From assembly GCF_020544405.1 (NCBI RefSeq), contig NZ_CP065410.1, positions 4,340,001-4,404,000 of the forward strand: a DNA stretch of 64,000 bases, given 5' to 3'. Below, in pieces: positions 53,437-64,000 of this stretch. Source of the stretch: Pseudomonas sp. IAC-BECa141. Its GTDB lineage: Bacteria; Pseudomonadota; Gammaproteobacteria; Pseudomonadales; Pseudomonadaceae. The position numbers and the translations under genes are program-made. The notes beneath the pieces were generated by a model. That model was not told where the DNA came from. It worked only from the letters and a program-made list of their open reading frames with translations, and searched no databases. Positions within the stretch are counted from its first letter, which is position 1. The number at the start of each line of letters is the position of its first letter.

Positions 53437-55434
53437 TCAGGGTTCGAGACGGCGCTGCTGGTAGATCCAGTCAACGATTTCGCCGTCAGGGGTGTAGCCG
53501 CTGACGGTTTCGCGCAGAATCTGGCGGACGCGGGAATAGTCATCCGCATCGACAGCAGCGAGCAGCTCTCCCAACCGGGATTTAAGAACATCCCAAGGCA
53601 AGTGATCCTCACTGGCGGTCATAATCATCGGATGCGGCGTCGCGGCAACGTTGTCGCCAATCAGCAGTTCTTCGTAGAGCTTTTCACCCGGGCGCAAACC
53701 TGTGAACTCGATGGAAATGTCGCCCTGCGGATTGCGCTCGGAACGAATACTCAAACCGGACAGATGAATCATTTTCTCGGCCAGTTCCACGATTCTCACC
53801 GGCTCGCCCATATCCAACACGAACACATCGCCACCCTGCCCCATGGAGCCCGCCTGAATCACCAGTTGGGCGGCTTCCGGGATCGTCATGAAGTAGCGGG
53901 TGATTTTCGGGTGTGTGACCGTCAGCGGACCGCCGGACTTGATCTGACTGTGAAACAGCGGGATTACGGAACCGGACGAACCCAGCACGTTGCCGAATCG
54001 GACCATGGTGAAGCGGGTCTTGTTGACCCGGGAGACGTTGGCTGCGTCACCAAACAATACCGGCGCCACCTCACGACTCAGCGCCTGGAGAGTCAACTCT
54101 GCAAGACGTTTCGTGCTACCCATGATATTGGTCGGACGGACAGCCTTGTCAGTCGAGATCAATACGAAATTCGAAACGCCTGACTGCAAAGCGGCTTGCG
54201 CAGTATTAAGCGTACCAATCACGTTGTTCAACACACCTTCAGCAATGTTGTGCTCGACCATCGGTACATGTTTGTAGGCCGCTGCGTGATAGACCGTGTC
54301 GACCCTCCAAGATTTCATCACGTCGAGAAGCTTTTGAGAGTGCCGGATCGAACCGAGTATCGGCAGTAACCGGACAGGGATCGATTCGCGACTGCCACGC
54401 TGTTCGAGTTCAGACAGAATGCTGTAAAGGTTGAATTCGCTGTGTTCGAACAGAATCAGGGTAATCGGTCCCAGCGCAAAGATCTGACGGCACAACTCAG
54501 ATCCGATCGAGCCTCCCGCCCCCGTCACCATCACGGTCTTGCCCTTGATGCAACGCTCCAAAAGGTCAGGCAACGCAGGAACAGCATCACGCCCCAACAA
54601 GTCGCCGATATCTACTTCTTGAATATCTTCGACCCTGACCCGACCACTGGCCAGGTCGGTAAAGTTAGGAACACTTCGAACATGTAGTGGAAAGCCTTCC
54701 AGAACGTTCAGGATTTCCCTGCGTCTTGCCCGGGTCGAAGAAGGCAAGGCGAGAAGAATTTCCTGCGCACCAGTAACATCAATCATTTGTTGAATATGTT
54801 TGGGTTTGTAGACCTGCAATCCTGAAATGGAGCGATCGGAAATACCCGGATCATCATCGATAAATGCTACCGGACGCATGACACGCCCCATGCGAAGGGC
54901 CGCCACCAACTGATTTCCGGCAACGCCGGCGCCATAGATGGCTACCTTGGTCAAACCATCATCGCGATTGGTAAAGGGAACGTGCTGGGCGGCAGTGAAC
55001 CAGTCGCCCATGAAATATTGACGCATCAGCAGGCGCAGGCCGCCGATGATCACCATGCTCACCCACCAGTAATTGAAGATTATCGAGCGAGGAACGACAG
55101 TTTCGTGATTGCTGTACCAGTAAACAATCAACGCCAGAATTAACGATGAAAGGCTGACGGCCTTGATGATCGCAACCAGCGCATCATTGCCGAAGTAACG
55201 CATCACAGCCCGGTACATACCAAAACGAATGAACAACGGAATAGCCACGAAAGGCGCCGAGGCAAACAACCAAAGATGAACACGCAGCGGGTTGTACATG
55301 TCATCGATGCCAAGACGAACGATAAAGGCCAACCAGAGTGCCAGCCACACCAATACTATGTCGGTGGCGACCTGAATCAGCCTTTTACGACGCCGGGGCA
55401 AACCCAGCAAATACGTTCTTACCTTGTCCATCAT
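53437..55434 (-). CDS. wbpM: WbpM-like UDP-GlcNAc C6 dehydratase / polysaccharide epimerase
   Basis: A 665-residue membrane enzyme that starts N-acetyl-fucosamine and quinovosamine synthesis. Four helices at the N-terminus (DIVLVWLALWLAFIVRL onward) are followed by a nucleotide-binding domain (VAIYGAGVAGNQLVAALRMG) and the main dehydratase domain (VMVTGAGGSIGSELCRQIF). In place of the SYK triad, NIMGSTKRLAEL shows Met-x-x-x-Lys, as in WbpM. The opening KVRTYLLGLPRRRKR matches WbpM. Tandem ATGs; the first, with GAGG at some distance, is used. Confidence 0.92.
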   Translation of the reverse strand: MMDKVRTYLLGLPRRRKRLIQVATDIVLVWLALWLAFIVRLGIDDMYNPLRVHLWLFASAPFVAIPLFIRFGMYRAVMRYFGNDALVAIIKAVSLSSLILALIVYWYSNHETVVPRSIIFNYWWVSMVIIGGLRLLMRQYFMGDWFTAAQHVPFTNRDDGLTKVAIYGAGVAGNQLVAALRMGRVMRPVAFIDDDPGISDRSISGLQVYKPKHIQQMIDVTGAQEILLALPSSTRARRREILNVLEGFPLHVRSVPNFTDLASGRVRVEDIQEVDIGDLLGRDAVPALPDLLERCIKGKTVMVTGAGGSIGSELCRQIFALGPITLILFEHSEFNLYSILSELEQRGSRESIPVRLLPILGSIRHSQKLLDVMKSWRVDTVYHAAAYKHVPMVEHNIAEGVLNNVIGTLNTAQAALQSGVSNFVLISTDKAVRPTNIMGSTKRLAELTLQALSREVAPVLFGDAANVSRVNKTRFTMVRFGNVLGSSGSVIPLFHSQIKSGGPLTVTHPKITRYFMTIPEAAQLVIQAGSMGQGGDVFVLDMGEPVRIVELAEKMIHLSGLSIRSERNPQGDISIEFTGLRPGEKLYEELLIGDNVAATPHPMIMTASEDHLPWDVLKSRLGELLAAVDADDYSRVRQILRETVSGYTPDGEIVDWIYQQRRLEP

Positions 55435-55540
55435 CCCGTCAAACACCTCAGCACTGTTCCTTTCAACTGACCTTACTATCACGCCTTCCCCTCAATGAGA
55501 GAGGGAGTAACACAGCATAACCAAACAGTAACATTGTTTT

Positions 55541-56569
55541 TCACGTGTTTGACGACCGGCTCTCCAACTGCCCTGCCTCGTACCTCACAGCCAGCCAAAC
55601 AAGAGGCAAGTAGGCCAGGATCAGAACCAGGGCACCATCCCAGTGAAAAACGACGACTCCCAACGCGAGTGGCAACAACCACAGCAAATTGATCAAACCA
55701 ACCGTCAATGTTACTGGCAAGTGAGCGCCATGGACGCGTGACGCAAACTGATAGGCATGACTGCGATGCGCCTCATAAACCTTATCACCACGTATGAGGC
55801 GTCGCAGCAAAGTGAATGTGGCATCAACAATGAAAACCCCCAGTAGAATCAGCCACCCCCATAACAACCCGGGACTGTTCCAGGCCGCCTGCAAAGACAT
55901 AAGCCCTAACACGATGCCAAGAAAGCCGCTGCCCGCATCGCCCATGAAAATTTTTGCCGGCGGGAAATTCCAGCATAGAAATCCCGCTACGCATGCGGCA
56001 AGCATTACGGATGGCCAGGCGACATCGGCTGCTCCACTGACCCAATAAAGAAGTGCGGCACCTAAACAGACACTCATCGCTTCGATACTGGCGATCCCAT
56101 CGATACCATCCATGAAGTTGTAAAGGTTGAGCATCCATACCAGATAAATCACGGCCAGAAGATGTCCGCTCCATCCGGAATCAAGGGTGAAACCGAAGAG
56201 TGTCACAGGCGCAAGCCCACCCAGCCAGTAAACGCCCCAACCTGCGGCCACAAAATGCGCAAGCAATCGCCACCGAGCTGCAATGTGTCCGTGGTCATCA
56301 AGAAAACCGATGACAGCGATGACTCCGCCTGCTCCAAGGAATGCCACAAAAGCGTCGAAAGAGATCAGTTTCCAGCCATACATCAACCCGAGTGCAGCGA
56401 GGAAGCTCAGGACGATCGCCACACCGCCCCCACGAGGCGTCGGCATGGAATGGGAACTGCGATCATTGGGAACATCGAGAAGGCTACGAGACATCGCATA
56501 ACGGCGCAATGTGGCGGTAAGTACAAAAGAAAGACCGGCCAGCGCCGGAGCAAGCCAACAAAAGTTCAT
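55541..56569 (-). CDS. wbpL: WbpL-like undecaprenyl-phosphate glycosyltransferase (GT-4/WecA family)
   Basis: A 342-residue multi-pass membrane enzyme that places a sugar-1-phosphate onto undecaprenyl phosphate to start O-antigen synthesis. Signatures: SHSMPTPRGGGVAIV, VIGFLDDHGHI (Asp pair), NLYNFMDGIDGIASIEA and KIFMGDAGSGFLG, with eleven or so hydrophobic segments. The ATG overlaps the stop of the upstream epimerase (ATGA). WbpL in P. aeruginosa uses UDP-FucNAc/QuiNAc and GlcNAc. Confidence 0.92.
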   Translation of the reverse strand: MNFCWLAPALAGLSFVLTATLRRYAMSRSLLDVPNDRSSHSMPTPRGGGVAIVLSFLAALGLMYGWKLISFDAFVAFLGAGGVIAVIGFLDDHGHIAARWRLLAHFVAAGWGVYWLGGLAPVTLFGFTLDSGWSGHLLAVIYLVWMLNLYNFMDGIDGIASIEAMSVCLGAALLYWVSGAADVAWPSVMLAACVAGFLCWNFPPAKIFMGDAGSGFLGIVLGLMSLQAAWNSPGLLWGWLILLGVFIVDATFTLLRRLIRGDKVYEAHRSHAYQFASRVHGAHLPVTLTVGLINLLWLLPLALGVVVFHWDGALVLILAYLPLVWLAVRYEAGQLESRSSNT

Positions 56570-57537: not shown

Positions 57538-57919
57538 TAATCTCGTTCTTCTCAAGCATAATCATTTAAAAGCGAACCTGAAGGCTCAAGTCCTGGAGCG
57601 CTCCCCTGGATGCCAGTATCCACAGCGCTCCGCAAAAGGTGCAACCCACAGCTGGCATGTCTTCAAGACCGGCGGGGTTGATAAGGGTAAAGCCTTACAA
57701 TTTTCAGCGTCACTGGATGAGGAACATCATGAAATCCCTTGGTGAAGACTTCATGCGATCAAAGCGGTGAATCGATATCTTACCTGATAGCGGGTCGTCC
57801 GCCGGTCAATCTCCCTGCTCCATGGCAGTCAGGCACTATCAAGCACAAGCGCATTTTCGCTACAATGCCCGTTTTGATTTGGGTCATTCGATCTAGTATG
57901 TGCGTTGCATTCAGCAATC
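57538..57919. other. Divergent intergenic region of the O-antigen locus
   Basis: The 382 bases between the wbpV-like gene and the first plus-strand glycosyltransferase hold no convincing gene. TACAAT at 57861-57866 could be a -10 for plus-strand transcription, but no matching -35 is evident. I looked for a JUMPstart/ops element (GGCGGTAGC-type) and did not find one. Low GC relative to the window average. Confidence 0.4.
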
Positions 57920-58987
57920 ATGCTCTCGTTGAAAACCTTTCTGACCTTCGAGTCATTTTTGCAATGGAGTGCTAGGTTGCTTAACCCTTTACCACCAGAT
58001 CATCAAGTGGACGCCACCTCCCAAAGCCAAAGCAGGCATACAGATACTCTTCTTGGATCTTCGTCTAAAAGCGTTGCAGTGCTTATGTGCACGTATAACG
58101 GTCAGCGCTTTCTCGCCGAGCAATTGACGTCCATAGGGCGTCAGACCCACGACAACTGGACAGTCGTGATATCGGACGATGGTTCGACTGATAAGACCCT
58201 CGAGGTTATTGAATCGTTTGCCAATCGCCTCGATCAAATCGGTAAAGTCAGCGTCGTGCAAGGGCCTAAACGGGGATTTGCAGCCAATTTCCTGACTTTA
58301 GCCTGTCGTAAGGAAATCCAGGCAGATTTCTATGCCTGGTCTGATCAGGACGATATCTGGCAGGAAAATAAAATTGAAACAGCTTTGGACTGGATCAAGA
58401 CAATTCCTTCCCAGGTACCTGCGCTCTATTGCGGAAGAACCCGAGGAATGGACTCGCAGGGCACCCCCCTCGAATGCTCACCTCTTTTCTCTCGCCCCCC
58501 AGCCTTTGCCAATGCACTCGTGCAGAGTCTCGCGGGTGGCAACACCATGGTATTCAACCAAGCAGCGCGGGAGCTGTTCATCAGTGCGGGGGAGCAACTG
58601 GATATCGTTTCTCATGACTGGTGGGCCTACCTGCTGGTGACCGGTGCGGGCGGCCAGGTGTTCTATGACGCACAACCGTTCGTTCTTTACCGGCAACATG
58701 AAGACAATCTTGTAGGCTCGAATTCAGGCTTTACAGCACGGCTGTCCCGGTTGCGCATGATGCTCAAGGGTCGATTCTCGAACTGGACCGAGCAAAACAT
58801 CAACTGCCTGGGCTCAGCACACCACCTGCTGACAGTCGAAAACCAGCAAATACTGGAGCGGTTTCGCCTGGCAAGGCAGAGCCCTCTTCCACGCCGCCTG
58901 GTGGGGCTATTGCGTGCTGGTGTCTACCGACAAACATTGCCAGGCAATATCGGACTGTTCCTCGCAGCCATTGTGAGGGGCATTTGA
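57920..58987 (+). CDS. Family 2 glycosyltransferase (rhamnosyltransferase-like)
   Basis: A GT-A fold enzyme of about 355 residues. VAVLMCTYNGQRFLAEQLTS opens the nucleotide-sugar domain, VVISDDGSTDKTLE has the first aspartates and FYAWSDQDDIWQENKI the D-x-D; LVTGAGGQVFYDAQPFVLYRQH follows. The group includes rhamnosyl and other hexosyl transferases of O-antigens. The start is unclear: ATG at 57920 has no ribosome site, whereas TTG at 57977 has GGAG seven bases upstream. Low GC. Confidence 0.83.
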   Translation: MLSLKTFLTFESFLQWSARLLNPLPPDHQVDATSQSQSRHTDTLLGSSSKSVAVLMCTYNGQRFLAEQLTSIGRQTHDNWTVVISDDGSTDKTLEVIESFANRLDQIGKVSVVQGPKRGFAANFLTLACRKEIQADFYAWSDQDDIWQENKIETALDWIKTIPSQVPALYCGRTRGMDSQGTPLECSPLFSRPPAFANALVQSLAGGNTMVFNQAARELFISAGEQLDIVSHDWWAYLLVTGAGGQVFYDAQPFVLYRQHEDNLVGSNSGFTARLSRLRMMLKGRFSNWTEQNINCLGSAHHLLTVENQQILERFRLARQSPLPRRLVGLLRAGVYRQTLPGNIGLFLAAIVRGI

Positions 58988-59184
58988 CCGATGAACAAAA
59001 CACGAGTGTTGCATTCCATAATCGTCAACGCATGTCGATGCACGAGCCTCGGCGAGCATGAAACGGGAGAGACTTCTACGCGATCCCTGGATCGGCCATC
59101 GTCCCCAACGCACGAAATATTCAGCGCCGCTCATAAAATTTTTCGACATAAAGAACGGCTGCCATTGGAGCTATTGCCTTGAAC
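58988..59184. other. Gap between glycosyltransferase and wzm genes
   Basis: The region holds one small frame (58991-59182) of 63 codons without homology I can recognise and with no ribosome site; I treat it as non-coding. GGAG at 59167-59170 likely serves wzm. Could contain remains of a lost gene. Confidence 0.4.
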
Positions 59185-60012
59185 ATGCATGATTCATTTC
59201 CAACGTCGCCCCTGAGAATGTTGACGAGTGCGATCAGGAATCGCCAGTTGATCATTCAACTGACGAAACGGGAAATTTCTTCTCGCTACCGCGGTTCTGT
59301 CGGAGGCGTGGCATGGTCATTCATAAACCCGCTGCTGCTGCTCGCGATATACACGTTTGTATTTTCAACAGTATTCAATGCCCGGTGGGGAGGTGGCGCG
59401 GCCACAGGCTCCAAAGTCGATTTCGCGCTGATCCTTTTTACCGGCCTCATCATTCATGCATTCTGCGCTGAGTGCATAAATACCGCGCCGAAACTGATCA
59501 CGAGTAATGTCAACTTTGTAAAAAAAGTGGTTTTCCCTATTGAAACCCTCGCACCGACTTCCGTACTGAATGCGTTGTTTCATCTATGTGTCAGCCTTTC
59601 AGTCCTTTTGGTTGCGCAAATGGTATTCAACCATTCGATTCCACTTACTGCGCTCCTTTTTCCGCTGGTCCTGCTCCCGTTGATTCTGATGGTGATCGGT
59701 CTGTCCTGGATCCTGTCCGCGCTCGGCGCCTATATTCGCGACATAGGCCAGGTAACCGGCATGGCAGCAACGGCCCTGCTGTTCCTTTCACCTGTTTTCT
59801 ACCCGATCAGCGCCCTGCCGGAAGAGTACCGTGGCTGGCTCTACATCAACCCCCTGACGGCCATCATCGAGAATGGCCGTGCAACCCTGCTTTTCGGTCA
59901 AATTCCCGACCTGCATACACTCGGCACAAGCTACATCGTCGGGATCGTCATTTGCTGCCTCGGCTTTGCATTCTTTCAAAAAACTCGCGCAGGCTTTGCT
60001 GATGTCCTCTAA
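59185..60012 (+). CDS. wzm: ABC-2 type polysaccharide export permease (Wzm-like)
   Basis: A 275-residue membrane protein with six hydrophobic segments: VAWSFINPLLLLAIYTFVFS, FALILFTGLIIHAFCAEC, VLNALFHLCVSLSVLLVA, ALLFPLVLLPLILMVIGL, GMAATALLFLSPVFYPIS and IVGIVICCLGFAFF. This is the Wzm pattern for exporting finished O-polysaccharide on undecaprenyl diphosphate. The start is uncertain: TTG 59179 fits the GGAG best, ATG 59185 is used here, and ATG 59218 is possible. It overlaps wzt by 11 bases. Confidence 0.9.
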   Translation: MHDSFPTSPLRMLTSAIRNRQLIIQLTKREISSRYRGSVGGVAWSFINPLLLLAIYTFVFSTVFNARWGGGAATGSKVDFALILFTGLIIHAFCAECINTAPKLITSNVNFVKKVVFPIETLAPTSVLNALFHLCVSLSVLLVAQMVFNHSIPLTALLFPLVLLPLILMVIGLSWILSALGAYIRDIGQVTGMAATALLFLSPVFYPISALPEEYRGWLYINPLTAIIENGRATLLFGQIPDLHTLGTSYIVGIVICCLGFAFFQKTRAGFADVL

Positions 60013-61342
60013 AGATGTTGCCATTCACGTCAATGGCCTCTCAAAGCGTTTCAACATGTATGAGAAAGCACACGACCGCTTGCTCCAGATGATCCTGCCA
60101 TCGAAAAAGCTTCACCATGAATTCTGGGCGCTGAAGGACATAAACTTTGAAGTGGCACGTGGTGAGTCCGTGGGCATCATTGGCAAAAACGGATCGGGCA
60201 AGTCCACACTCTTGCAGATCATTTGCGGCACGCTCACGCCAACTACCGGAACGGTCAATGTTGACGGGCGTATTGCCGCACTGCTTGAGCTTGGTTCCGG
60301 GTTCAATCCGGAGTTCAGCGGGCGGGAAAACGTTTATCTGAACTGTGCGATTCATGGCCTGAGCCGAAGCAAGACCGACGAACTGATGGACGACATCCTG
60401 TCATTTGCGGATATCGGGGAATTTGTTGACCAGCCCGTCAAAACCTACTCAAGCGGCATGTTTGTACGCCTGGCATTCTCTGTGCAGGCCAACCTGAAAC
60501 CCGAAATCCTGATCGTCGACGAAGCTCTCGCCGTCGGCGATGCGCTGTTTCAGAAACGTTGCTATGAACGCATTGAAAAGCTCACAAGCAGCGGAACTAC
60601 TCTGCTGTTCGTTTCTCACGATGAAGAATCCGTTCGAACTTTGACACAGCGAGCAATTTTTTTATCGAACGGCAAAATCGAAAGCATTGGTTCATCGGCT
60701 GACGTCATTCTCGACTACCGCAGAAACCTGCACGAACAGGAAAGTCTTTACCTGCAACAGCTGACCAAAAGTCTTTCCGATAAAGCGGTTCAGCATCAGA
60801 AAGACAGCGGCCAGACAGAGAAGGCTGAATCGAAAACAGCGGATCGTTTCTCTTTCGGGAATCAGGACGCGGAAATTCTGGATGTCAGGGTTCTCAACGC
60901 AGCAGGCGAGGAAACTCAGGTTTTTTACGCAACAGACATCGCCGTCATTCGGGTCTCTTTCCGTAGCAATGTGGATCTTGAGCATCTAAACGTCAGTCTG
61001 CGTCTACGCAACAAGGAAGGCGTCAAGATTTACTCGTGGGGCACACTGAATCAGGACATGGCCATTGCCGCCAACCTGGCAACGGGCGAAACATTCTGGA
61101 ACAAGACGTTCTCCGCAGGCACGGAATCATCGGTGGACTTTCAATTTGAATGCAGCCTGGGCGCCAACCTTTATGAAATTCAGGCGGCCGTTTCCCAGGA
61201 AGGCAAACCTTACTACGCAGAACAACGCATTCTCCATTGGAGAGACGAAGCAGCATTCTTCACGGTGGCAACCAAGCCACGGGAGTATCACTTCGGCGGT
61301 GTATTGGATCTTCGCATGAAAGCAAATGAAATTAAGGGCTGA
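60002..61342 (+). CDS. wzt: ABC polysaccharide export ATPase with C-terminal glycan-binding domain (Wzt-like)
   Basis: A 446-residue ATPase. The N-terminal half is complete: Walker A GKNGSGKST at 61-69, signature YSSGMFVRLAFSVQ and Walker B ILIVDEALAVGD. After about residue 265 comes an extra domain of 170 residues of beta-sandwich character (RVSFRSNVDLEHLNVSLRLR, then FNKTFSA-type segments). In E. coli O9a and O8 this domain binds the modified end of the finished O-chain. Such a domain implies that a terminating modification exists, for which the next gene is the natural candidate. Confidence 0.92.
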   Translation: MSSKDVAIHVNGLSKRFNMYEKAHDRLLQMILPSKKLHHEFWALKDINFEVARGESVGIIGKNGSGKSTLLQIICGTLTPTTGTVNVDGRIAALLELGSGFNPEFSGRENVYLNCAIHGLSRSKTDELMDDILSFADIGEFVDQPVKTYSSGMFVRLAFSVQANLKPEILIVDEALAVGDALFQKRCYERIEKLTSSGTTLLFVSHDEESVRTLTQRAIFLSNGKIESIGSSADVILDYRRNLHEQESLYLQQLTKSLSDKAVQHQKDSGQTEKAESKTADRFSFGNQDAEILDVRVLNAAGEETQVFYATDIAVIRVSFRSNVDLEHLNVSLRLRNKEGVKIYSWGTLNQDMAIAANLATGETFWNKTFSAGTESSVDFQFECSLGANLYEIQAAVSQEGKPYYAEQRILHWRDEAAFFTVATKPREYHFGGVLDLRMKANEIKG

Positions 61343-61346
61343 GCCT

Positions 61347-64000
61347 ATGACTATCTCTGACACAAACATTTGCTCGGCCGCCGAAGCACACACGACCTCG
61401 CTGACAGCGGGAGAGCGCGCACAACTGGTGTCGCAGGTACTTTCCGCCTGTGGCAATGGCAACCTGCTGCATATCGGCCTGCCTGATACAGAACTGCTAC
61501 GCTCGTTCCTGTTGGAAGGCGTCCAGGTTTCCAGCGTTTACCCGGGAGCCGAAGTCGGCAATTACAATGCCCAGCTACCGGGTCGATTCATCGAATGGAA
61601 GAGCGACGATCTGCCATTGGGCGATGAGAGCTATTCGACGGTTCTGATCACCACCCGTGCTGACGACATTGAATTGTCGCTTCAGCGCTTGGCCATTGAG
61701 GCGACAAGAGTTTCTCGGCGCAATATTTTCCTGTTCCTGGATACTCGCACTGAACCCGATACGAAAGAGGCTCGCAAAGCCTGGGAAATGGTGTTTTTCG
61801 ACAACGGCGCTCGAAAACATCCGGCCTACTATCGCGTCAACGATTACCAATCCCTGCAATACGAACAGGGCAAAATCGCGATTCCACTTGAAAAACTGCC
61901 CAAGGAAGCCGCAGCCATTTATCCATTGGAAGCGCTTAAAGAAGAGCGCGACCTGCATATGGACATGACGCGCGAACCTGGCAGTCGCTCCGATGGCCAT
62001 ATCATTCGCTACTTGCTGGCAAGTCGTTATGTGCGCAATGGCGACCGTGTCCTGGATGCGGCCTGCGGACTGGGCTATGGCGCCTATACCCTGTTCAATT
62101 GCTCGGACGCCAGTTCGATCCTGGGTGTTGACGGAAGCAACTACGCGATCAAATACGCAGAAAAGAATTTCTCCGCCGTCAATCCACAACTGACCTTCAA
62201 AGAAGGCTGGTTGCCGGAAGCATTGAACGATATTCCGGACAACTCAATCGACCTGATCACATCATTTGAAACACTGGAGCACGTTCCGGACCCGGTCGGC
62301 CTGCTTGCCGAGTTCTACCGCGTCCTCAGCCCTTCAGGGCGAATTGTGCTTTCTGTTCCAAATGACTGGTCCGATGAAACCGGAGAGGATCCGAACGAAT
62401 TCCATTTCCATGTCTATACGTGGGAACGCATTCTCAAGGAACTTGAGAAGGACTTCATTGTTGAAGCGGCGTACGCTCAGACCGCCGATCAATACAAACC
62501 GAAAATCAACAACTCCTATGAATGGGCAGTCGGCGTTCGTGAAATGTACGAAGTCGACACCAAGACACTGATCGAAAAAGATCCGTCTTGCGAATGGTGC
62601 ATTCTGGTCGGGATGAAATCGCCGACACTGGGTGCGACAGTGCCTTACCGTGAAAGCACGTATGACCTTTATCCGGAAAATCCCGAGTGGAAAGTCACGC
62701 GCTTCGACGATTACGCCAACCCCTGGCTGGTAAAAGGACTGGTCACGATAGGTGACCGCATCGAGGATCGTCAGCAACTGCTTGAACTGTCCCGCGAAGC
62801 AGCCAGTCAGGCGTCGTCGACATCTCCCGATCTCGGCGCGGCGCTCTGCATTCAGGCCTATCAGCTCCTGCAAGCTTCAACGCTGACGGTGAGCGAGTTG
62901 GAAGTGTTTGCCCAAGGCACCGACACATACATGAACCAACTCGACCATTCCCCCCAGCAATTGCGCTGGAAAGTGTCGCTGGCGTTCGTCATGGCTCAAC
63001 TCTGGCAGGTCGTCGGCAATACGGCTCGCGCTATCGAACTGTATGAACGCTGCGTGGCATACGACTGCTTGCAGTACAGCCCGACACTGATCACCAAGCA
63101 GATTCGATCGTACCTGAATCTTGGCTTGATCGAGTCGGGCGCAGGCAACTATCAAAAGGCTGTGGAGTATTGGCGTGCAGGTGTTGCCGGCGCAGAAAAA
63201 GCGCTTGGTGCAGACTGGCGCTCGTCAATCGGTTCGCTCGACAAACCGACTGATTTCGGCCTGTCCGAGCTCGGTGCCATTGTCGAGCTCGCCTCCTCAT
63301 GCGCTTATGCCTTACGGTATGTTTCCAACGCTCAGAATCGCACCCCGCAATGGTGGCACCAACACCTTCGCGACCGCGACTCTCAATTGTCGAAAGTACC
63401 AGGTATCGTCGCCGAAACCGCGCGTCTGAATAAGGTGATCCTGCAGAAGGATGCGGCACTGCAGTCCATTATTTCAGACGCCAGCAAGGCCGCTCTGGAA
63501 GAGGCCAGGGCGGCAGCCAATGCAGCTCGGGAAGAGGCCAATGCAGCTCAAGAGCAGATCAACGCCCTGAACCAGCACCTGGAGCAGAAAAACGCGATTG
63601 TCCAGCTGCTGAATGCTGAAGTTGCACAGCGTGAACAACGCTTGCAAACCATTGCCCGGAGCCGTTTGTTCCGTTTGAGTCAAGCGTTTGCAGCTCAGCC
63701 CAGCGACCTGAAAAAATACCTTCGCGTGGCTTACGTACTGGCTTCCTTGGTGACACCAACACCGGTTCGACGCTTGCTGAGTCCGGCAGTTTCAGCTCTG
63801 AAGAAAAATCTCAAGCGCGAACCTGCCGCCACGCAGGTCACCGAAAAGACTTTCGACATCAACCAAGACACCTACATCGTCAAGCAACCGACCTCGCTCA
63901 ACGCAGCAAGGCCGCAAGTGCTGCATGTGATTGCGAACTTCATGACCGGGGGCTCCTCTCGTCTGGTGGTGGACATCTACGAGTACCTGGGCGGTCGGTT
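61347..64000 (+). CDS. Methyltransferase / coiled-coil / glycosyltransferase fusion (3' end outside window)
   Basis: The frame is open from the ATG at 61347 to the end of the window, 884 codons with no stop. Residues 1-200 look like a SAM-methyltransferase fold without its binding loop (LLHIGLPDTELLRSFLLEGV). Residues 215-400 are an intact class I methyltransferase: VLDAACGLGYGAYTL at 235-249, then SSILGVDGSNYAI and SFETLEHVPDPVGLLAEFYR. A helical, TPR-like stretch follows to about 680, then a coiled coil at about 690-770 with EEA-x-AA repeats. From residue 855 QVLHVIANFMTGGSSRLVVD opens a GT-B glycosyltransferase. It begins four bases after wzt, so it is in the same operon. Chain modification linked to export is inferred. 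Confidence 0.85.
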   Translation, partial: MTISDTNICSAAEAHTTSLTAGERAQLVSQVLSACGNGNLLHIGLPDTELLRSFLLEGVQVSSVYPGAEVGNYNAQLPGRFIEWKSDDLPLGDESYSTVLITTRADDIELSLQRLAIEATRVSRRNIFLFLDTRTEPDTKEARKAWEMVFFDNGARKHPAYYRVNDYQSLQYEQGKIAIPLEKLPKEAAAIYPLEALKEERDLHMDMTREPGSRSDGHIIRYLLASRYVRNGDRVLDAACGLGYGAYTLFNCSDASSILGVDGSNYAIKYAEKNFSAVNPQLTFKEGWLPEALNDIPDNSIDLITSFETLEHVPDPVGLLAEFYRVLSPSGRIVLSVPNDWSDETGEDPNEFHFHVYTWERILKELEKDFIVEAAYAQTADQYKPKINNSYEWAVGVREMYEVDTKTLIEKDPSCEWCILVGMKSPTLGATVPYRESTYDLYPENPEWKVTRFDDYANPWLVKGLVTIGDRIEDRQQLLELSREAASQASSTSPDLGAALCIQAYQLLQASTLTVSELEVFAQGTDTYMNQLDHSPQQLRWKVSLAFVMAQLWQVVGNTARAIELYERCVAYDCLQYSPTLITKQIRSYLNLGLIESGAGNYQKAVEYWRAGVAGAEKALGADWRSSIGSLDKPTDFGLSELGAIVELASSCAYALRYVSNAQNRTPQWWHQHLRDRDSQLSKVPGIVAETARLNKVILQKDAALQSIISDASKAALEEARAAANAAREEANAAQEQINALNQHLEQKNAIVQLLNAEVAQREQRLQTIARSRLFRLSQAFAAQPSDLKKYLRVAYVLASLVTPTPVRRLLSPAVSALKKNLKREPAATQVTEKTFDINQDTYIVKQPTSLNAARPQVLHVIANFMTGGSSRLVVDIYEYLGGR

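Follow-up and report, generated by a model that had tools for sequence, protein, structure and literature searches.

The question raised by this stretch of Pseudomonas sp. IAC-BECa141 DNA (the window: 64,000 nucleotides, contig NZ_CP065410.1, positions 4,340,001 to 4,404,000) is what a giant protein with methyltransferase, coiled-coil, and glycosyltransferase (GT) parts does immediately downstream of wzm and wzt, which encode the permease and ATPase of an ATP-binding cassette (ABC) exporter. The protein is probably a terminator, ruler, and GT in a single polypeptide for an ABC-transporter-dependent surface polysaccharide (O antigen), with a methyl cap that would be read by Wzt. Genomic evidence supports the putative terminator-plus-ruler role well, through the Wzt_C domain encoded next door, length variation within the coil block, and covariation of the N-terminal head with Wzt_C.

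The fusion frame stays open up to the window edge, whether read from an ATG at 61347 or from one further upstream at 61326; as the original prediction had stated, at least 884 codons precede that edge (61347..64000; all features here are on the + strand unless noted). Extension into the genome of the strain (G000, a single contig of 6.22 Mb) reaches a stop at L006:8937 (G000:C1:4404937), giving 1196 codons from 61347 or 1203 amino acids from 61326. Upstream lie wzm (59182..60012), for an ABC-2 export permease (PF01061, E 4e-28), and wzt (60002..61342, its start codon picked by the analyst), for an export ATPase with a C-terminal domain (PF00005 and PF14524). This domain, Wzt_C, spans residues 285-437 as counted on a translation from 59999 (E 5e-22). 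The end of wzt at 61342 falls four bases before the fusion ATG, which is preceded by an AAGGG stretch; both the spacing and the presence of a C-terminal domain in Wzt had been read correctly from the sequence.

In an AlphaFold2 model built from a 63-sequence alignment (mean predicted local distance difference test score, pLDDT, 86), the order of parts is a first and a second methyltransferase-fold domain (MT1 and MT2), tetratricopeptide repeat (TPR)-like helices, a coiled coil, basic helices, and a GT4 glycosyltransferase. MT2 (residues 213-425; 61983..62621) possesses an intact S-adenosylmethionine (SAM) motif, LDAACGLGYG, as class I methyltransferases do, and a Pfam methyltransferase match at residues 235-341 (PF13649, E 1.4e-17), in keeping with the SAM loop earlier placed at residues 235-249; its glycine motif is retained in 51 of 51 full-length family members. 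The original prediction saw one methyltransferase: MT2 stands, but the singleness does not, since residues 20-185 (61404..61901) are modelled as a second methyltransferase-fold domain, which rules out a lone one. MT1 carries the degenerate SAM motif LHIGLPDTEL, and GxG is found in none of the 18 members of the window's clade versus 25 of the 33 others. In this lineage MT1 probably no longer binds SAM, and may act as a scaffold or glycan-holding domain. Differently degenerate MT1 motifs (GDDSG or GDDKG) occur in P0019, P0022-P0025, and P0028, and thus MT1 decay may have occurred more than once. Structure comparison with the whole model had the GT domain alone among its listed matches, and Foldseek matches to tandem phosphoethanolamine methyltransferases, at a root-mean-square deviation of 13-16, are not used as support.

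From residue 423 to the GT domain the model consists of helices only, with no strands between MT2 and the coil. The TPR-like helical domain (residues 460-665; 62724..63341) is drawn from model helices and a weak PF13374 match at residues 587-624 (E 2.9e-5; 24.4 bits, below the 27.5 cut-off). Periodicity and model helices at residues 677-719 and 735-770, in a block with pLDDT 37-69, define the coiled coil, a putative ruler (residues 677-770; 63375..63656). Basic helices follow (residues 773-822; 63663..63812), a candidate membrane-contact region with net charges of +2, +3, and +4 and hydrophobic moments of 0.32-0.39, which do not stand out from those of other helices. The GT4 module (residues 855-1196) starts at 63909 and continues beyond the window (63909..64000 inside it); the model shows a GT-B fold with its first strand at residues 857-861, and the Pfam GT4 matches fall within residues 1016-1160, with an extra weak match at 917-975. 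A coil near residues 690-770 and a first GT-B strand near 858 had both been anticipated.

Length variation among the 51 full-length members, the window's included, is concentrated in the coil block (676-856), which measures 120-551 residues (standard deviation 104), whereas the other four blocks are near constant (standard deviations 3.5, 2.1, 1.5, and 0.4 residues). This is unusual because coiled-coil regions on average vary less in length than other regions, according to passages of PMC5082667. Averaged over the family, hydrophobic periodicity has its maximum at 3.5 residues (13.1, versus 0.45-3.6 at ten other periods), and in 34 of the 51 members no more than 3 of 300 shuffles score as high; at the 1-in-100 level, the TPR, MT2, and GT control regions each give 0 of 11. 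Periodicity thus rules out a chance coil family-wide. Three pairs of proteins more than 98% identical elsewhere differ in the coil by 70, 126, and 42 residues. Among the 21 edges of the tree whose flanks share at least 0.85 identity, 18 show a change in coil length and 4 a change in flank length. Half of these coil changes (9/18) are whole heptads (P 0.00035 versus 1 in 7; 0.00035 to 0.0047, uncorrected, over five flank-identity cut-offs). Three long members (L012, L010, and L105) have tandem DNA repeats of 42, 84, 126, or 168 bp—all multiples of 21—in their coil regions, and these repeats likely arose by slippage or unequal crossing-over; one more array in L105, of 12 bp, is outside the coil region. 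No report of repeat-based coil variation was recognised in a literature search mostly without full text.

The head, in turn, is tied to Wzt. Scanning genome contigs turned up 61 loci that carry the GT module; wzt is present in 32 of the 43 whose N-terminal part reaches at least 250 residues versus 5 of the 18 with a shorter one. In the loci with a full MT1-MT2-TPR fusion (L009-L014 and L020), the fused gene starts 0-67 bases from where wzt ends in 7 of 7, and all 38 Wzts scanned (37 from GT-module loci plus the window's) bear Wzt_C. The N-terminal parts belong to methyltransferase families in 26 of the 43 and to GT2 in 10. Single scans of the seven parts missed by the profiles gave a methyltransferase in L021, L023, and L027, Methyltransf_24 in L048, a sulfotransferase in L034, and no informative Pfam family in L032 and L033. 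With the ATPase domain controlled, head similarity (over the first 690 residues, coil included in some proteins) and Wzt_C identity (from alignments with penalised ends) show a partial r of 0.86 (reached by 0 of 2000 permutations; 37 loci, the window among them), and of 0.84 after thinning to 31 loci. Related heads without the GT module accompany Wzt_C domains with identities to the window's of 0.46 (L100), 0.45 (L073), and 0.39 (L102); GT modules with another head give 0.19-0.23 in four example loci.

Comparison with known Wzt carbohydrate-binding domains, suggested with the original prediction, succeeded in part: a profile of the 38 Wzts matches PDB 8dku and 7k2t—both titled 'ABC transporter' and presumably the Aquifex protein—over profile positions 18-407, its best full-length PDB matches, but the C-terminal domain of the window's Wzt alone found no PDB match at E up to 1. 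In Aquifex aeolicus, which shares with this locus a Wzm-Wzt pair with a C-terminal domain, that domain binds 3-O-methyl sugar caps, as passages of PMC9445017 describe; Wzt_C similarity that follows the head is what would be expected if Wzt_C likewise recognises what the head produces.

In the mechanism proposed, the C-terminal GT4 module (GT4a) and GT4b, the product of the next gene, are taken as the chain-building enzymes and would add sugars near the membrane, where the basic helices may hold the GT4 module. The coiled coil would keep the methyltransferase head apart from this module, so that growth would stop when the non-reducing end of the chain reaches MT2 and is methylated. The C-terminal domain of Wzt would then bind the capped end and export would begin, with chain length set by coil length. 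In layout, with MT2 ahead of the coil, and in its wzm and wzt neighbours, the protein agrees with known coiled-coil terminator/ruler proteins of ABC-dependent glycan assembly, whose capping enzyme sits at the far end of an extended coil; the length variation of the coil block is consistent with a ruler.

WbbB of Klebsiella O12 has 3-deoxy-D-manno-oct-2-ulosonic acid (Kdo) activity and is not a methyltransferase. As is proposed for the Pseudomonas fusion, it unites a terminator and a polymerase in a single coil-bearing polypeptide, and Klebsiella O4 ORF7 resembles the fusion in its TPR-like bundle before the coil, although it adds Kdo and is not a methyltransferase (passages of PMC11231755). 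The same passages give the layout of Klebsiella pneumoniae O7 ORF6 as methyltransferase-kinase-carbohydrate-binding module-coiled coil-GT2-GT2, which is similar in having an N-terminal distal terminator, a coiled coil, and C-terminal GTs in one polypeptide from a wzm/wzt locus; the Pseudomonas fusion differs in its two methyltransferase-fold domains, its TPR-like helices, the failure to find a kinase, and a single GT4 in place of two GT2. WsaE of Geobacillus stearothermophilus also has an N-terminal cap methyltransferase fused to GT, in this case two rhamnosyltransferase domains rather than the single GT domain found here, and the stop and start codons of wzm, wzt, and wsaE overlap; the passages on WsaE name no coil, and another length factor is possibly needed (PMC2943079). 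Terminator, coil, and GT in one protein are already known from passages on O7 ORF6 and O12 WbbB, as is terminator with GT from those on WsaE; what differs here is the tandem pair of methyltransferase domains, the first of them degenerate, the TPR-like helices, the single GT4, and the repeat-linked coil length.

The original prediction of a WbdD-like terminator and ruler gains genomic support for the role but not for the family. WbdD of E. coli O9a is similar in bearing a methyltransferase head and coiled coil in one protein and, as proposed here, in capping the chain (passages of PMC3482155 and PMC5082667), and its coil length sets chain length (PMC5082667); it has a kinase and a separate polymerase, WbdA, whereas no kinase was detected in the Pseudomonas fusion among 15 Pfam families or the best 25 of 40 NCBIfam rows. 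The model likewise has no strand between MT2 and the coil, and a PDB sequence search (E up to 0.1) gave 55 matches, none of them to a chain named WbdD. Membership of the WbdD family is rejected on these grounds, and WbdD is retained as a working analogy.

Several observations weigh against reading the fusion as terminator, ruler, and GT. Eleven of the 43 loci with a long N-terminal part have no visible wzt (L017, L026, and L037 offer just 0-2.9 kb of upstream sequence). L032 and L033 have Wzt_C domains like that of L039 (score 0.45-0.47; ATPase identity 0.79) despite unlike heads (0.06); wzt is more than 4 kb away in L032 and L033, where the terminator may thus be something other than the fused head. 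Head similarity also tracks the ATPase domain of Wzt when Wzm is controlled (0.65), and thus shared ancestry or linkage accounts for part of the pattern. The window's own coil is short and of moderate significance only, with 13 of 300 shuffles as high (7 of 200 by a cruder score); the other 9 of the 18 coil length changes are not whole heptads, and the window's gene, like L014, has no tandem repeats at the same score. GT4b of G000 (L006:8934-10292, just past the window) contains an in-frame TAG at L006:9177-9179, codon 82 of 453, and hence the pathway may be off and the chain may not be made in this strain. On an Aquicella lusitana plasmid (L101), a related head sits beside an FkbM methyltransferase, with flagellar genes some 5 kb away and wzt absent from the stretch; that head may be put to another use.

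Among the alternatives, the one that fares best—still unlikely, though it deserves serious attention—has the fused GT4 add a terminal or first (adaptor) sugar instead of building the chain. An EX7E motif is typical of GT4 retaining glycosyltransferases. The 115 GT modules align with near-invariant motifs, and the first Glu of EX7E is present in 115 of 115, but the second position is Phe in 112, so that the full motif is absent; this favours the adaptor, as does the strong conservation of the module (best segments 37-56% identical across genome loci, 32-56% with the head included) even though the polymers should differ. The partner genes point the other way, since GT4b (at least 200 bits) in 58 of the 61 loci, GT4c in 30, and a GalE-like gene in 39 resemble a conserved polymer-building set; GT4b starts within 150 bp of the GT module stop in 39 of the 61 (counted by hand). 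In characterised terminators, moreover, polymerising GTs are proximal and the capping enzyme distal (passages of PMC11231755). Alphaproteobacterial GT4 modules (L056-L064, L066, and L067) occur as short proteins of 255-656 residues in loci with no full-length wzt, with GT4b in 10 of 11, and hence the GT pair may also serve outside capped export. In P0083, this GT4 module is part of a protein that also has an ABC-2 permease domain and a weak match to a coil.

That the locus is decaying and the fusion is without function in this strain is rather unlikely. The early stop in GT4b speaks for it, and the full fusion is found in only 3 of 398 genus genomes, this one included, with a fourth (G377) having the head without the GT module; the fusion gene itself, however, is intact with conserved motifs, and full-size GT4b exists in other copies such as L105, L010, and L012. 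The GT4b counterpart in L013, a draft genome, is also split in two frames. A head search at E up to 1e-40 in 274 class, 398 phylum, and 390 order genomes found, besides the strain itself, one weak relative, G938, at 32% identity.

An improbable account of the covariation between head and Wzt_C is that neighbouring genes simply move together, without any reading of the product. It can draw on the fact that wzt immediately precedes the fused gene in the nearest relatives and on the correlation of the head with the ATPase domain given Wzm. Against it, the GT module, which is fused to the head, is uncorrelated with Wzt_C (partial r -0.02; 1195 of 2000 permutations as high; 34 loci), and the same is true of Wzm (-0.13; 1855 of 2000; 33 loci); with the head controlled, GT module and Wzt_C show a weak link (0.24; 0 of 2000). 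Pairs matched for ATPase identity (0.50-0.62) still have a mean Wzt_C identity of 0.44 when heads are similar (n = 33), 0.40 when intermediate (n = 24), and 0.21 when dissimilar (n = 384). Internal or side-chain decoration of every repeat by the methyltransferase, with the coil a flexible tether gathering enzymes and length set elsewhere, is the least likely of these four, because although O antigens can carry internal O-methyl groups and the Aquicella head lies away from wzt, it would not predict Wzt_C similarity that follows the head rather than the GT module, nor length changes that fall chiefly within the coil block, many of them in whole heptads.

If the fusion is a terminator, ruler, and GT, its relatives bear on how surface-sugar chain length and end-capping are set, which decide export and the encounters of phage and host with the cell. 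The natural series of coil lengths, with its three near-identical pairs, suits testing of the molecular-ruler model; the pairing rule would allow the kind of cap to be guessed from the C-terminal domain of Wzt, and the family would show caps, cap readers, and rulers being swapped and resized in nature. A wider proposal, tentative and held at somewhat less than even confidence, is a modular cap-and-reader code in ABC-exported surface glycans: head and Wzt C-terminal domain would be swapped together as matching partners, with reuse of the permease and GT modules, the heads being several methyltransferase types and, newly, sulfotransferases with sulfate as the terminator, and the ruler would be resized by in-frame minisatellite repeats to give relatives differing mainly in coil length.

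Sulfotransferases are in this respect a candidate class of chain terminators. In four proteins (L034, P0054, P0094, and P0114), a sulfotransferase and a coil-like stretch are combined with the same GT module. Searching with the sulfotransferase part yielded 174 proteins, of 433-1363 residues among the matches listed; in 117 new proteins among the best 120 of the 174, the first of two patterns taken here to represent 3′-phosphoadenosine-5′-phosphosulfate (PAPS) motifs fits 85 and the second 115. The 50 of these 117 with 430-660 residues show a mean 3.5-residue period after the sulfotransferase (6.6, versus 0.6-1.3). Within the genus, 12 of 398 genomes have a sulfotransferase match (E up to 1e-40) at 13 places, where the first PAPS pattern fits only 5, which slightly lowers confidence in the wider proposal, and the second all 13. 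At six of these, wzt adjoins the sulfotransferase-coil gene: four encode Wzts of 442-448 residues bearing Wzt_C, which reach the edge of the sequence examined, and two are partial at the sequence edge; no wzt was seen within the flank examined at the other seven. All four Wzt C-terminal domains best match that of L034 (score 0.44-0.55, next 0.07-0.10, among 42), which comes from a Methylophaga metagenome-assembled genome and is the one Wzt in the set of 42 that has a sulfotransferase head as its partner; that sulfate terminates chains is thus a testable prediction. The ATPase identity of the four to L034 is also raised (0.70-0.75). In Aeromonas salmonicida, passages of PMC4483657 place a sulfotransferase open reading frame between wzt and wbbB, a frame to which the authors were unable to assign a role. 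No report of sulfotransferase chain terminators was recognised in the literature search, again mostly without full text. Sulfotransferase-coiled coil proteins occur alone or fused to various glycosyltransferases (L110-L115; P0190-P0306).

Relatives of the MT1-MT2-TPR head are also plasmid-borne. The P. aeruginosa plasmid L100 (NZ_CP083368.1) carries one without the GT4a module in a galE-wzm-wzt surface-sugar cluster, and six further P. aeruginosa plasmids have head relatives; a literature search listed nothing relevant on plasmid-borne O-antigen clusters with such genes. Two other giant methyltransferase-containing proteins, of 1587 and 1470 residues, occur in the same genus (L108 and L109, in G260 and G078), in loci with Wzt-like ATPases of 247 and 233 residues, which are too short for a C-terminal reading domain.

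Further upstream in the window, a GT2 glycosyltransferase gene (57905..58987; PF00535, E 2.6e-20) precedes wzm. Two open reading frames on the - strand follow towards the locus edge: an initiating transferase candidate at 55541..56569, which from the look of its sequence is taken to be of the WbpL/WecA type, and, at the edge itself, a dehydratase candidate at 53437..55482, presumably of the WbpM type.

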